Shown in pieces: positions 3,491 to 7,936 of a stretch of 7,936 nt of DNA. Both the position numbers and the translations under genes were made by a program. The notes beneath the pieces are model-generated. The model was not told where the DNA came from. It saw only the letters and a list, made by a program, of their open reading frames with translations, and ran no database searches. Within the stretch, counting starts at the first letter, position 1, and each line of letters begins with the position of its first letter. Source of the DNA: Magnetospirillum sp. (lineage in GTDB: Bacteria; Pseudomonadota; Alphaproteobacteria; Rhodospirillales; Magnetospirillaceae); NCBI GenBank assembly GCA_016183945.1, contig JACPDP010000068.1:1-7936 (forward strand). Direction: 5' to 3'.

Positions 3491-5713
3491 TCAGCTCTCG
3501 ATGAGGCGGCGGTAGGGGCCGTCCTCGGCTTTCATCTGATCGTGCGTGCCGCGCTGGATGATGCGGCCGCGGTCGAGCACCACGATCTCGTCACAGTCCC
3601 GGATGGTCGACAGGCGGTGGGCGATGATGATGCAGGTGCAGCCGCGCCGTCGCAGATTCTCGACCACGGTCAGTTCGGTGGCGGCGTCCAGCGCGCTGGT
3701 GGCCTCGTCGAGGATCAGCACCGAGGGCTGCGCCGCCAGGGCGCGGGCGATCTCGATCCGCTGGCGCTGCCCGCCCGAAAAGTTGCGGCCGCCCTCGGAC
3801 ACCGCCGAGTCGTAGGCCTTGCCCCGCGCCACGATGTCGTCGTGGATCACCGCGTCCTTGGCGGCCCGCACCATGCGCTCGTCGGGCAGGGTGTCGTCCC
3901 ACAGCGTGATGTTGTCGCGAACGGTCCCCTCGAACAGGGCGATGTCCTGGTCGACGATGGCCACCGAGCCGCGGAACACCTCGCGCGGGTACGAGGCGAT
4001 GGCGCGGCCGTCGAACAGCAGCTCGCCCGACCAGGGCTGGTACAGCCCGGCCAGGATGCGGCCCACCGTCGATTTGCCCGAGCCCGAGCCGCCCACCAGC
4101 GCGACGCGGGTGCCCGGTTCCAGCGTCAGTGAGAAGCCCTCGATCATCGGCGGGTCCAGCGGCGAGAAGCCGAAGGCGAGGTCGCGCACCTCCACCCGCC
4201 CGGTCAGCGCGGTGAAGCCGGCCGGCAGCGGCTCGACGGTGGCGGGGTCCACCAGGAATTCGGCGTCGCGCTTGTGGCGCAGCACATCGTCGAGACGGTT
4301 GATGTTGCCCTCGGCGTCCTGCACCTGGGCGCCCAGGCCGACCAGGCTTTGCACCGGCGCCTGGAACTGGGCCATCAGCATCTGGAAGGCGATCAGCATG
4401 CCCACCGACAGCGCGCCGTCCATCACCCTGAGGCCGCCCACCATCAGGATCAGCGCCGAGGCGATGCCGCCCAGCAGGATGGGCACCGCCTGCAGCAACA
4501 GCCGGGTGCGGCCGAGGTCCTGTTCGGCGGTCACCACCTTGGCGTGGTAGGCGGCAATGCGCGAGAAGAACAGCGACTCCATGCCCGAGGCCTTGAAGCT
4601 GTCGATGATGCCGATGTTCTGGGTGGTGACGCCGGTCAGCTTGCCGCGGTCGAGCAGCAGCTTCTGGTTGGCGTCCGCCAGTTGCCGCGCCACCAGGCGA
4701 AGCGCCAGCAGGTTGCCGCCGGCAAAGGCGATTCCCAGCAGGGTCAGCACCACATCGTACTGGAACATCAGCAGCACGAACACCGCCATGGTGATCATGT
4801 TGAGGACGGCGTTGGCGAGGTCGCCGGTGATGGCGGTGGCGACGCGATCGTTCATGGCGACGCGCGACGCGATCTCGCCGCCGTAGCGCTGGCCGAAGAA
4901 GCCGATGGGCAGGCGCAGCACATGCCACAGTAAGCGGCTGGAGCCCTCCACCGACAGCTTGGTCTGCAGCTTCATCAGCTGTTCCTGCTGCAGCCAGGTG
5001 AGCATGCAGCGCACCAGTGCGGTCACCGCCATGGCCGCCAGCAGCGGCAACAGCCAATCCTTCAGCTTCTGGATCAGGTAATAGTCGATGAACACCCGCG
5101 AGAACGACGGCAGCAGCAGGGCCGGAATGGCCAATCCGACGCTGGCCAGCACCACATAAAGCAGCGCCGTCTCGATGCCGGGAATGCGGGTCTTCAGGCT
5201 CTTGAGGGCGTTGAGACGCTCGCCGCCCTTGACGAAGTCGTCGCCGGGCTCGAAGGCCAGCGCCACGCCGGTGAAGCATTCGTCGAACTCGACATTGGCG
5301 ACGCTGCGCGATCCGGTGGCGGGGTCGTTGAGGTGCACCGTGCCGTCGCCGAAGCCCTCGACCACCACGAAGTGGTTGAAGTTCCAGAACACCACCAGGG
5401 GCAGCGGCAGCCGGCGCAGGCCGTCAAGCTCCATCTTGAAGCCCTTGCCCTTGAGGCCGTAGGTGCGCGCCGCCTTGACGATGTTGGAGGCCTTGGAGCC
5501 GTCGCGGGTGACGCCGCAGGCGTAGCGCAGGTCCTCCAGCGGCACGAAGCGGCCGTGATAGGCCAGCACCATGGCCAGGCAGGCGGCGCCGCATTCCACC
5601 GCCTCCATCTGCAGCACCGTCGGCGTGGAGACCCGGATGCCGTCCGATTTGCCCCGCAGTCGCCGGATGCGTGCCATCAGGGGGGCCAGGAGTGAGGGGA
5701 GGGCGGCCGTCAT
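3491..5713 (-). CDS. NHLM-type exporter: C39 double-glycine peptidase / ABC permease / ATPase (TIGR03796-like)
   Basis: This 740-residue protein both trims double-glycine leaders and exports the product across the inner membrane. Residues about 28-155 are a peptidase C39 domain with all expected catalytic features: oxyanion Gln35 and nucleophile Cys41 in QMEAVECGAACLAM, His114 in NFNHFVVVEG, and Asp130 in LNDPATG. The membrane domain spans about 180-460, with hydrophobic stretches near 183-203, 221-240, 301-320, 322-345, 408-428 and 436-450. The ATPase spans about 505-740: Walker A GGSGSGKST (541-549), Gln589, signature SGGQ (646-649), Walker B VLILDE (665-670), and His699. The reading frame is open upstream to 5839, but those 42 residues lie inside the fusion-protein gene and are low-complexity Arg/Pro/His. 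The ATG at 5713 overlaps the preceding TGA as ATGA and fits the family. Its most obvious substrate is the divergent double-glycine precursor at 7385. Confidence 0.95.
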   Translation of the reverse strand: MTAALPSLLAPLMARIRRLRGKSDGIRVSTPTVLQMEAVECGAACLAMVLAYHGRFVPLEDLRYACGVTRDGSKASNIVKAARTYGLKGKGFKMELDGLRRLPLPLVVFWNFNHFVVVEGFGDGTVHLNDPATGSRSVANVEFDECFTGVALAFEPGDDFVKGGERLNALKSLKTRIPGIETALLYVVLASVGLAIPALLLPSFSRVFIDYYLIQKLKDWLLPLLAAMAVTALVRCMLTWLQQEQLMKLQTKLSVEGSSRLLWHVLRLPIGFFGQRYGGEIASRVAMNDRVATAITGDLANAVLNMITMAVFVLLMFQYDVVLTLLGIAFAGGNLLALRLVARQLADANQKLLLDRGKLTGVTTQNIGIIDSFKASGMESLFFSRIAAYHAKVVTAEQDLGRTRLLLQAVPILLGGIASALILMVGGLRVMDGALSVGMLIAFQMLMAQFQAPVQSLVGLGAQVQDAEGNINRLDDVLRHKRDAEFLVDPATVEPLPAGFTALTGRVEVRDLAFGFSPLDPPMIEGFSLTLEPGTRVALVGGSGSGKSTVGRILAGLYQPWSGELLFDGRAIASYPREVFRGSVAIVDQDIALFEGTVRDNITLWDDTLPDERMVRAAKDAVIHDDIVARGKAYDSAVSEGGRNFSGGQRQRIEIARALAAQPSVLILDEATSALDAATELTVVENLRRRGCTCIIIAHRLSTIRDCDEIVVLDRGRIIQRGTHDQMKAEDGPYRRLIES

Positions 5714-7011
5714 CGGTCGAGCAGGGATTCCAGGGCCGGGATGGCAAGGCTGATGAGGTGGATGTCGCGCACGGTGATCTGCGCCTCGGCCAGGGTGCCG
5801 TTGTTGACGTCGGCTTCCGGGCCGCGCGACGAGGACCACTTGAAGCCGGTGGGCGTGTCGGGGTCGCGTTCCAGTTCCACCACCACTTCGAACGGTGCCC
5901 CGCCGCCGGACAGCGACTGCACCAGGGCTTGGTTCTTCAGGGTGCGCATCATGCCCTCGGTGGTCGAGGGGATTTCCGCCACCGACTTCACCGTGCCGCG
6001 GATGAAGCCGTATTCTTCGCGCTTGACCGTCGAGGGCGCCACCTGTGCCGCCATGCCGGGACGCACCTTCTTGCCGTCGTTGGGCGGCACGAAGACCACG
6101 GCGAGCAGGTCTCCGGTCTTGTCCTTGACCGAACGGCTCGCGCGCGACGGCAGCAGGCTGAACAGGGCGGCGCTCTTTTCGACGACCTCGCCCTCGTTGA
6201 TCTTGAACTCGACGATGTCGCCGGAATAGGGGCTGAGCACCGCCGACTGGCGCGCCAGCTTCTCGGCCAGCGCTTCGATTTTCCGGGTGGCGGCGCCGAT
6301 GGCCATTTCCTTGTCCAGCAGCTCACGCTCCTTGCCGATGGAGAGCGTGGTCTCGTCGCGCTCCACCTGCTTGAGTTCGTTGTTGGCCTTGGACAGGGCC
6401 TCATAGGCCGCATTCAGGTCGATCTTGGTGTTGATGTAGCGTTGGCGGTCGATGATCTGCTTCTCCATCAACCGCGCTTCATTCTTTTCGCGCTCCTCCA
6501 GCCACTTGATGCGGTCCTGGACGTGGCGCAGGGATTCCTTGAGGTCTTTCTTCTTCTGCTCGAGCAGGGCCTTCTGCACCTTGGAGTCGCGACCTTGGAA
6601 GGCGATGATCTGGCCCCTCTGGCGCTCCAGTTCGGCCAGTTCCCCCTTGGCGGTTTCCAACTCCTGGCGCAGGTCGGGCTGTTCCAGGCGGGCCACCACC
6701 TGCCCGGCGGTGACCTTGTCGCCGGAGCGCACGAACAGTTTGGTGAGGCGCCCGCCATGCTCCGAGGCCACCGCAAGGACACCGCCGGGGCTGATCAGGA
6801 TGCCCTGCGACGGCACCTTCACCGGGACCGTGGCGAACACGCTCCACAACAGCGACCCCACCACCAGGACCATCACGCAGGCCATCATCAGCCATTGCAA
6901 CGGCGACGTGACCCGCATCACCTGGTCAAGTTGCTCGGGAGTCGACAAGCGCTCTATCGCGACCTGCCTGAAAATGGCTTGATTGTTGGACATTTGCCCC
7001 ACTTGCCCCAT
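5710..7011 (-). CDS. HlyD-family membrane-fusion protein of NHLM-type exporter (TIGR03794-like)
   Basis: This 433-residue periplasmic adaptor would link the inner-membrane ABC exporter to the outer membrane or periplasm. The cytoplasmic N-terminus has the family-typical stretch IERLSTPEQLDQVMRVTSP (19-37), followed by one membrane anchor at about 40-60. Two half-lipoyl (biotinyl-lipoyl-like) motifs lie at about 76-112 (GGRLTKLFVRSGDKVTAGQ) and 256-285 (SPYSGDIVEFKINEGEVVEK). Between them, residues about 113-256 are a charged, heptad-like helical hairpin rich in Lys/Glu/Gln. The C-terminal part (about 300-420) is the beta-barrel region. It is the first gene of the leftward operon and overlaps the next by 4 bases. 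Start choice is uncertain: ATG 7011 lacks a clear Shine-Dalgarno, and the in-frame ATG at 6993 (MSNNQAIFRQ) sits just after a GTGGGGCAA stretch. The two starts are separated by a tandem TGGGGCAA duplication. Confidence 0.93.
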   Translation of the reverse strand: MGQVGQMSNNQAIFRQVAIERLSTPEQLDQVMRVTSPLQWLMMACVMVLVVGSLLWSVFATVPVKVPSQGILISPGGVLAVASEHGGRLTKLFVRSGDKVTAGQVVARLEQPDLRQELETAKGELAELERQRGQIIAFQGRDSKVQKALLEQKKKDLKESLRHVQDRIKWLEEREKNEARLMEKQIIDRQRYINTKIDLNAAYEALSKANNELKQVERDETTLSIGKERELLDKEMAIGAATRKIEALAEKLARQSAVLSPYSGDIVEFKINEGEVVEKSAALFSLLPSRASRSVKDKTGDLLAVVFVPPNDGKKVRPGMAAQVAPSTVKREEYGFIRGTVKSVAEIPSTTEGMMRTLKNQALVQSLSGGGAPFEVVVELERDPDTPTGFKWSSSRGPEADVNNGTLAEAQITVRDIHLISLAIPALESLLDR

Positions 7012-7141
7012 GAGTCAAAAAAGAGGATAGCGCAAGTCGCCGGGTGGTGATATTTTTTTTGTCGAGGCATCTCGCGAGGGCGGAGGGCGAGCGACAAGAA
7101 GGCGGCGCTGCGCATGGTAGTAATCGGTGTGCGCCGCGTTA

Positions 7142-7160
7142 TTGTAAACCGGTTGTAAAC
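7142..7160. promoter_or_regulatory. Direct repeat TTGTAAAC x2, candidate operator
   Basis: TTGTAAAC occurs at 7142-7149 and again at 7153-7160, giving a repeat period of 11 bases, about one helical turn. Two protein subunits could therefore bind on the same face. The junction forms the palindrome AACCGGTT (7147-7154). It lies in the AT-rich centre of the divergent intergenic region, next to a long palindrome. The repeat is seen directly; the regulatory role and the binding factor are inferred and unknown. Confidence 0.45.
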
Positions 7161-7162
7161 AT

Positions 7163-7201
7163 CAGCAGCCAGCAATAATACATTATCATTTGCTGTTGCT
7201 G
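7163..7201. repeat. Long imperfect palindrome in the divergent promoter region
   Basis: The arms are CAGCA (7163-7167), AGCA (7171-7174) and ATAAT (7175-7179), then a 2-base centre, then ATTAT (7182-7186), TGCT (7191-7194) and TGCTG (7197-7201). The outer segments are interrupted by short unpaired stretches. It may be an operator for a dimeric regulator acting on both divergent units, or a weak hairpin if transcribed. No U-tract follows it, so a terminator is unlikely. Confidence 0.45.
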
Positions 7202-7285
7202 AGATTTAGCCGGGCTCAGGTCGACTTCCGTCCCACGGGTGTTTGGTAATACCAGTTACGCCGGTAGCGCCTTGGCGGCACGCTC

Positions 7286-7317
7286 GCCGTCATCCGATCC
7301 GCGGTTCTGCGGACGGC
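7286..7317 (+). other. Possible hairpin in the precursor 5' leader
   Basis: GCCGTC (7286-7291) can pair with GACGGC (7312-7317), enclosing a 20-base loop in which CGC (7300-7302) can pair with GCG (7309-7311). An alternative inner stem is TCCGC (7298-7302) with GCGGA (7309-7313). It lies 67 bases upstream of the precursor start codon, in what would be its untranslated leader. In GC-rich DNA such pairings arise often by chance, so this is a weak call. Confidence 0.25.
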
Positions 7318-7372
7318 CATCCACGACGGAGCGTTCCAGCTCGTGAGTGGCGCAACCTTCTTCATGCACGAT

Positions 7373-7377
7373 GGAGG
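7373..7377 (+). promoter_or_regulatory. Ribosome-binding site of the precursor gene
   Basis: GGAGG lies 7 bases before the ATG at 7385, close to the ideal Shine-Dalgarno sequence and spacing. It decides the start: an in-frame ATG at 7364 (adding MHDGGNA) has no comparable site upstream. The strength of the site suggests high translation, as expected for an exported peptide or structural protein. Confidence 0.85.
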
Positions 7378-7384
7378 AAACGCC

Positions 7385-7462
7385 ATGAGTGGTAATAATA
7401 AATCCGGTTTCGGTTCCGACGCCGAGTTGTCCGACCTGGACCTCGATGGTGTTGTCGGCGGT
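7385..7462 (+). other. Predicted double-glycine leader peptide (residues 1-26)
   Basis: This segment codes for the leader that the C39 domain would remove after Gly26. The N-terminal half (SGNNKSGFGSD) is polar and Gly/Asn-rich; the C-terminal half carries the conserved hydrophobic and Gly positions. It is short and shows no nitrile-hydratase-alpha-like or Nif11-like domain, unlike the long leaders for which NHLM systems were named. The start codon context (GGAGG, 7 bases) supports a leader of exactly this length. Confidence 0.8.
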
Positions 7463-7936
7463 GCCACCGGCCCCGACGGCGAAGTGACTGCGGACGATGC
7501 CGCGTCATTCGTGGATGCGGCTCCGCCGCCCGCGCCGGCCGGTGATGCGGGAATGGCGCCGCCGCCGGTTGGCGATCCCGCGATGATGCCTCCCGCAGGC
7601 GACCCCGCCATGGGCGGCGACCTCGCGATGATGCCTCCCGCAGGCGACCCCGCCATGGGCGGTGCGCCGGGCTACGTGCCGCCGACGGGCGGCGATCCCG
7701 CCATGGGCGGCGCTCCGGGCTACGTGCCGCCGATGGGCGGCGATCCCGCCATGGGCGGTGCACCGGGCTACGTGCCGCCGACGGGCGGCGATCCCGCCAT
7801 GGGCGGTGCACCGGGCTACATGCCGCCGATGGGCGACCCCGCCATGGGCGGCGCTCCGGGCTACGTGCCGCCGATGGGCGGCGATCCCGCCATGGGCGGT
7901 GCACCGGGCTACGTGCCGCCGATGGGCGACCCCGCC
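7385..7936 (+). CDS. Double-glycine-leader secreted repeat protein, probable exporter substrate (partial, open at the right edge)
   Basis: 184 codons are visible with no stop. Residues 1-26 are a leader: ELSDLDLDGVVGG places Leu at -12, Ser -11, Asp -8, Leu -7, Val -4, Gly -2 and Gly -1, matching the classical double-glycine pattern cut by C39 peptidases. Residues 27-46 are an acidic spacer, and 47-62 are Pro/Ala-rich. From residue 63 the protein is tandem repeats: two related 15-residue units (MMPPAGDPAMGG at 67-78 and 82-93), then six units containing APGY (Tyr97, 113, 129, 145, 160 and 176) with a consensus near GGDPAMGGAPGYVPPM. No Cys is present, and after the leader only five Ser/Thr are seen, which argues against lanthipeptide chemistry. 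It is divergent from an exporter operon with an intact C39 domain, so it is very likely its substrate. I do not recognise the family. An extracellular disordered structural or adhesive protein, or a multi-peptide precursor, are possibilities. Confidence 0.87.
   Translation, partial: MSGNNKSGFGSDAELSDLDLDGVVGGATGPDGEVTADDAASFVDAAPPPAPAGDAGMAPPPVGDPAMMPPAGDPAMGGDLAMMPPAGDPAMGGAPGYVPPTGGDPAMGGAPGYVPPMGGDPAMGGAPGYVPPTGGDPAMGGAPGYMPPMGDPAMGGAPGYVPPMGGDPAMGGAPGYVPPMGDPA
7571..7936 (+). repeat. In-frame tandem repeat array (45/48-bp units)
   Basis: The array encodes the repeat part of the precursor. A 45-bp duplication occurs first: the segment from 7580 recurs from 7625. It is followed by six APGY units beginning at 7661, 7709, 7757, 7805, 7850 and 7898. 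Units are 48 bp, or 45 bp when one Gly codon is missing (unit 4 at 7805-7849). Units 2 and 5 are identical over all 48 bases. Differences are mostly silent (GGT/GGC, GCA/GCT/GCG) or a Thr/Met or Val/Met switch. All length changes keep the reading frame, so selection appears to maintain the protein. The array continues beyond the window. Confidence 0.92.

Follow-up and report, generated by a model that had tools for sequence, protein, structure and literature searches.

Can an exporter of the bacteriocin type serve a long, repetitive protein? The question is raised by a stretch of 7,936 nt from Magnetospirillum sp. (contig JACPDP010000068.1), the whole of which is called the window here, and in which a repeat gene on the plus strand is divergent, i.e. 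head-to-head, from the genes for a HlyD-type adaptor and two ABC proteins on the minus strand. The original prediction, made from the sequence alone, had read this arrangement as an exporter of the NHLM type that secretes a repetitive, probably disordered polymer.

All three exporter proteins scored above the curated cut-offs of the NHLM models, which identifies the exporter type as predicted. The HlyD-type adaptor (TIGR03794; 5710..7011, minus strand; 433 aa) reached 363 bits versus a cut-off of 156, ABC1, a C39 peptidase plus ABC exporter (TIGR03796, PF03412; 3491..5713, minus strand), 1046 versus 853, and ABC2, an exporter without peptidase (TIGR03797; 544..3486, minus strand; 980 aa), 858 versus 709. 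The listed frame of ABC1 starts at 5839, and the ATG at 5713 is likelier by eye. The catalytic set of the C39 domain, claimed to be intact, is complete: C83, H156 and D172 of the listed frame (codons 5591-5593, 5372-5374 and 5324-5326, minus strand) align with C27, H101 and D117 of LahT (structure 6mpz, alignment E 4.9e-44), as in active C39 domains, and the three residues are invariant in all ten aligned C39 domains of ABC1 proteins, the window among them. A cyclic-nucleotide-binding "bacteriocin-type transport-associated" protein (TIGR03896; 2..499, minus strand) is cut by the window start and, with its gene incomplete, scored 157.5 bits, just below the cut-off of 161. It has the same place in six of the seven relatives described below, and the contig of the seventh (L147) stops before that place.

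The divergent intergenic region (7012..7384) has 373 bases if HlyD starts at 7011, with GGAGG just before the ATG of the repeat gene; the gap to HlyD is about 412 bases in L147 and about 176-376 bases in the other six relatives and the window. Patterns of the FNR, CRP, sigma-54 and lux type had no match in the seven intergenic regions searched. The intergenic regions of L001, L113, L114 and L115 contain blocks that seem common to the four.

The frame of the repeat gene (7385-7936, plus strand) is open to the window end and encodes 184 aa so far, without a stop; its ATG at 7385 is preceded by GGAGGAAACGCC. Residues 1-26 (7385..7462, plus strand) form a double-glycine leader, MSGNNKSGFGSDAELSDLDLDGVVGG, ending in ELSDLDLDGVVGG (VVGG), with predicted cleavage after G26, as judged from the sequence and the six-row alignment A1, in which the leader is kept in all six sequences, the window included. 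The position-by-position fit to the C39 consensus stood: L-12, S-11, L-7, V-4, G-2 and G-1 are all present, together with D-8, and residue 27 is Ala. The leader thus has the hydrophobic residues at -12, -7 and -4, the acidic residue at -8 and the GG at -2 and -1 of double-glycine precursors (PMC6363468, in part). According to parts of the same source, L-12, L-7 and V-4 match both the ComA consensus and three hydrophobic pockets of LahT, and the consensus also fits D-8.

A linker with a conserved DDAASFVDAAPPP segment follows (7463..7570, plus strand); alignments A1 and A2 show it as DAANFVEAPPPP or similar in relatives. The remainder (7571..7936, plus strand) is a tandem array of short GDPAMMPPA units and then GDPAMGGAPGYVPPMG/TG, in which Tandem Repeats Finder detected overlapping arrays between 7571 and 7936, and which continues past the window end. 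The unit listing comprises three shorter units without Tyr, followed by six with the core GDPAMGGAPGY(V/M)PP. The claim of one Tyr and about two Met per unit was right about Tyr, of which each full unit has one; of Met there are one to two per unit. The mature part so far, 158 aa, consists of 24.7% Pro, 23.4% Gly, 17.7% Ala, 10.8% Met and 9.5% Asp, with zero Lys/Arg and, in agreement with the description of the array as Cys-free, zero Cys.

To find relatives, ABC1 was scanned against genome contigs, and the best 80 loci among the matches listed were considered. The best match among those listed was a Phaeospirillum metagenome-assembled genome (L001; best segment 74%). The gene that diverges from HlyD there has a like leader and linker and a different unit (28 aa), and ends with a stop codon after 272 aa; the array has seven full units of 28-29 aa and one partial unit. 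In a HlyD search of the family of L001, 18 of 55 genomes were over the cut-off, and the 18 loci read gave further relatives. The nearest relative of the window is L111 (genome G004; ABC1 96.5%), the gene of which likewise breaks off within repeats, at the contig end. Seven relatives were accepted (L001, L111, L112, L113, L114, L115 and L147), all in one order, kinship being judged from the named records L001 and L006. As expected from the original prediction, all seven keep the leader and lie head-to-head with exporter genes of the TIGR03794/03796/03797 type.

A profile of the six A1 leaders, window included, was searched against the 317 genomes of the order (E up to 0.01). It had matches in nine genomes, five of which had supplied profile sequences. 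Two of the others, G042 (5.8e-14) and G550 (7.6e-4), have no sequence in the profile, and since both matches adjoin this exporter type, the pairing of leader and exporter is more than chance. The matches in G634 and G681, neither of which is among the 32 genomes with the exporter, were judged to be chance on reading, that of G681 being an acyltransferase-like protein. At the family level, strong matches (E 5.8e-14 or better) were found in six of 55 genomes, all among the 18 with the exporter; seven weak ones (E 0.013-0.051), two of which pointed to giant proteins, were not counted as relatives. In an even sample of the class, one of 385 genomes had a match, L001's own, and in the family of G550 one of 18, G550 itself. 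Judged from these sequence searches, the Pro-rich cargo family looks narrow.

The whole window frame had 20 matches in the protein database, with E 0.17 or worse, and the six that were read look like unrelated proteins with common low-complexity stretches. When the leader regions of L001 and of the window were used as queries, nothing scored at E up to 10 (94 and 171 candidates, respectively). No NCBIfam model matched the window frame at 0.001, the NHLP/Nif11 leader models TIGR03793 and TIGR03798 included, or the L001 protein at 0.01, and the sole NCBIfam match of the L112 protein was a surface-repeat model, far under its cut-off. An E3_binding match (0.059) and the surface-repeat matches, all under their cut-offs, were ignored. 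The L112 gene (12481-13098, plus strand; genome G022) encodes a non-repeat C-terminal part of about 90 residues, which resembles surface-repeat models at a level below threshold.

Two relatives deviate. In L115 a shrunken gene (16781-16984, plus strand) keeps leader and linker, lacks the repeats and has a mature part of 33 aa. It has no ATG, GTG or TTG start in frame and may be a decayed copy; because the adjoining exporter genes match over their full length, the polymer can apparently be lost. In L147 the HlyD frame of G550 (3594-4894, minus strand) falls into two parts, and one frame has an internal stop; this exporter may be broken or wrongly sequenced.

The relatives have the leader and the linker DAANFVEAPPP in common, the linker being less well kept in L112 and L147, and the repeat unit differs between genomes: it is GDPAMGGAPGYVPPM in the window, AGDMAGFQPPPGGDPNMAPPPAGFAPPP in L001, PNGTNAPANMAPPPGPMAPPD in L113, PPPPPPGGDM in L112 and PPEGDMPPPPEGEAPP in L147. 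The mature parts of the window and of all seven relatives lack Cys and have 0-2 Lys/Arg, 21-33% Pro and net charges from -1 to -43, the value being only -1 in L115. The complete mature masses are 23.6 kDa (L001) and 18.0 kDa (L112), and the open-ended ones 14.5 (window), 18.7 (L147), 12.7 (L111), 12.8 (L113) and 8.1 kDa (L114).

Most differences between the units of one genome are at silent sites, so that the unit seems to be kept as protein. The six window units have a pS of 0.157 and a pN of 0.011 (pN/pS 0.07). For L001, where one of the seven full units was left out because of an extra Gln, the values are 0.158 and 0.021 (0.14). In both cases they come from unit pairs that are not independent of one another. 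The antisense frame that shares the wobble position has a like ratio in the window (0.161 versus 0.012); in L001 its ratio is weaker (0.115 versus 0.038). An AlphaFold2 model from six rows showed no fold (pLDDT 53, pTM 0.12), so the mature product is probably disordered, low pLDDT being weak evidence of disorder when the sequence is of low complexity. Together, the linkage and the absent predicted fold support the pairing of a bacteriocin-type exporter with a repetitive, probably disordered polymer, the export of which is predicted.

For comparison, we surveyed what else lies beside such exporters. At E up to 1e-50, the order has 37 HlyD places, spread over 32 of its 317 genomes; all 37 places, in loci of varying length, were scanned with a single GG-leader pattern. 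Only seven of the 37 have the Pro-rich cargo; the startless short frame of L115 is absent from the pattern listing and was seen by profile match and reading. Another plausible GG frame was found by eye at 12 places: the mature part has 32 aa at two of them, five have small precursors on the same strand, two have giants, and three fall into none of these classes. At the remaining 18, the pattern, which misses other leader types, gave no frame or only implausible ones, on contigs some of which end near HlyD. The two 32-aa cases (L116:4337-4549 and L141:8586-8792) are divergent GG precursors of 68-70 aa with two NPKGFEPVTM-like unit copies, and are perhaps like an ancestral short form. Small same-strand precursors before HlyD end in LGAPI(Y/F)KKKP in L006 (8548-8745), L118 (1058-1225) and L174 (7363-7521).

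In a HlyD tree of 38 rows, several of them on long branches, the window and six of its seven relatives form a group of seven rows with a support of 90/94, below the starred level. This group sits inside a starred group of ten, together with the FEPVTM pair and L169, the contig of which ends at HlyD. L147, whose row is a partial HlyD, is placed apart from the other Pro-rich loci, beside L161; its cargo would therefore have arrived by transfer or arisen apart.

We propose that the 26-residue leader docks in helical form into the C39 domain of ABC1, that C39 cuts the precursor after Gly26, and that the mature part is exported unfolded by the ABC1/ABC2-HlyD complex together with an outer-membrane TolC, the gene of which would lie elsewhere. 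Taken jointly, docking, cleavage, export and the TolC partner are likely, judging from the genes. The exported product would be an acidic, Cys-free, disordered, Pro-rich polymer. Its service as cell-surface or biofilm-matrix material is the least supported part, a tentative suggestion by analogy that we would rate somewhat below even; it is our best guess by exclusion and because of the precedent of EbfG. We give the reading as a whole, a C39-processed, exported, disordered Pro-rich polymer that serves as surface or matrix material, an even chance.

EbfG1-4 of Synechococcus elongatus are GG-leader proteins, the efficient secretion of which needs the cysteine of the C39 transporter; biofilm depends on them, and matrix or amyloid proteins are among them (PMC4997328, PMC9981879, both in part). 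The window shares with EbfG1-4 and PteB the GG leader and the C39 transporter, the dependence here being predicted, and perhaps also the role in biofilm and matrix. In contrast to the 6-7 kDa of mature EbfG proteins, of which EbfG1-3 form amyloid (same sources, in part), the window product has at least 14.5 kDa and is Pro-rich, so amyloid seems unlikely for it. With the NHLM/NHLP system of Haft et al. 2010 (PMC2887384, in part) the window has in common the three exporter proteins and the kind of GG cleavage motif. The differences are a 26-aa leader without NCBIfam match, a long Cys-free repeat cargo instead of a short core rich in Cys, Ser and Thr, and flanks in which no modification enzyme was recognised by eye near cargos of the window type. 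A C39 ABC protein, a HlyD-type adaptor and a cleaved N-terminal leader (cleavage being predicted here) also occur in small-cargo type I systems such as that of microcin V (PMC10231218, in part), but the cargos of these systems are described as <10 kDa, and the window exporter has two ABC proteins. One-step export of large repeat proteins, which is predicted here, is likewise a feature of RTX type I systems with a C39-like domain (PMC8277102, in part); unlike the window, they have an inactive C39-like domain and an uncleaved C-terminal signal instead of an intact C39 and an N-terminal signal.

Other roles of the cargo were weighed against the surface or matrix material. The conserved linker after the GG could be the working part of a flexible spacer or stalk, in which the array only sets the length. 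This would account for a linker that is conserved where units vary, and for the spread in array length, L115 having no array and L001 seven full units plus a partial one. Silent-biased divergence implies that the unit sequence matters within a genome, and L115 is perhaps a decayed copy, so we consider a mere spacer unlikely.

The precursor could also be multi-core: cuts at each unit would release many small bioactive peptides, with modification (RiPP) or without. The NHLM exporter family was defined via RiPP precursors (PMC2887384, in part), the units are regular, with a protein sequence that is kept within a genome, and two exporters of the same starred group have 32-aa mature cargos with two units each. 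Nevertheless, a multi-core precursor is distinctly improbable: the unit is not conserved between genomes, Cys is absent and Ser/Thr are few, no protease other than C39 was noticed, and no shared modification-enzyme or immunity-like gene was recognised by eye in the flanks of seven loci, the window and several contigs ending close to the repeat gene, so that modification enzymes may be encoded in other places. The multi-copy peptide role suggested earlier is weakened accordingly.

A Met-rich or Tyr-rich functional polymer, for binding of copper or another metal or for oxidative Tyr cross-linking, was suggested by the Met content of the window and its one Tyr per full unit. Met falls to 2.6, 3.6 and 3.9% in L147, L114 and L112, the aromatic residue is Phe in L001 units, the main units of L113 and L112 have none by eye, and no metal gene was recognised by eye in the flanks of the relatives. 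After this comparison, neither metal binding, which had been among the proposed roles, nor Tyr chemistry was kept as a main reading, and both are very improbable; like the RiPP role, they are weaker because Tyr and Met are not conserved and no shared modification gene was recognised. That the repeat protein is no cargo at all, its GG arising by chance and the exporter serving other precursors, which can be far from exporter genes (PMC2887384, in part), is hardly credible, since the same leader recurs in all seven head-to-head relatives, including two that did not contribute to the search profile.

The proposed export polymer may have giant counterparts. L139 and L140 contain NHLM exporters (HlyD and ABC1 over the cut-offs) with an adjoining TolC gene (TIGR01844). 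A protein of 1679 aa with the GG leader HIDLDDLDKIVGG (L139:221-5260, plus strand) is encoded upstream of TolC, HlyD, ABC1 and ABC2, and one of 2231 aa with the leader KLDLDDLDDVVGG (L140:8550-15245, plus strand; genome G023) downstream of them. The leaders end in DLDKIVGG and DLDDVVGG, respectively, and predicted cleavage leaves 162.8 and 220.3 kDa. Despite weak matches to the leader profile (0.013 and 0.033), the giants are credible as GG-leader proteins because of position and motif. The L139 giant had no Pfam or NCBIfam match at 0.01, and a low-confidence model of its first 1200 residues (two-row alignment) was all helical with a mean pLDDT of 48.6, reaching 69-77 only around residues 181-310. 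L115 additionally encodes an 883-aa DGS-type repeat protein with a GG leader (6707-9358, plus strand) and a Tcp10_C Pfam match just above the cut-off, convergent with a cyclic-nucleotide-binding gene of the same cluster type.

According to parts of PMC8277102 and PMC10231218, cargos of type I systems with an active C39 have about 10 kDa or less, and large cargos use an inactive C39-like domain and a C-terminal signal; one survey gives 28-164 aa for cyanobacterial precursors. No comparable cargo was recognised in the literature searched, i.e. top-ranked records with subscription journals mostly outside coverage. The window family and the giants beside two NHLM exporters predict against the limit of about 10 kDa and are direct test cases. 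The odds seem balanced that NHLM-type GG exporters with an active C39 are not limited to small peptides and, jointly with this, that in relatives of Magnetospirillum and Phaeospirillum they would have become a general route, guided by an N-terminal signal, for the secretion of long repeat proteins, the smallest being the Pro-rich polymers (14-24 kDa) and the largest the giants (163-220 kDa). If so, they would offer a one-step, tag-free route for the secretion of repetitive polymers, and the annotation of such exporters as bacteriocin systems may be wrong, as they could be e.g. matrix systems.
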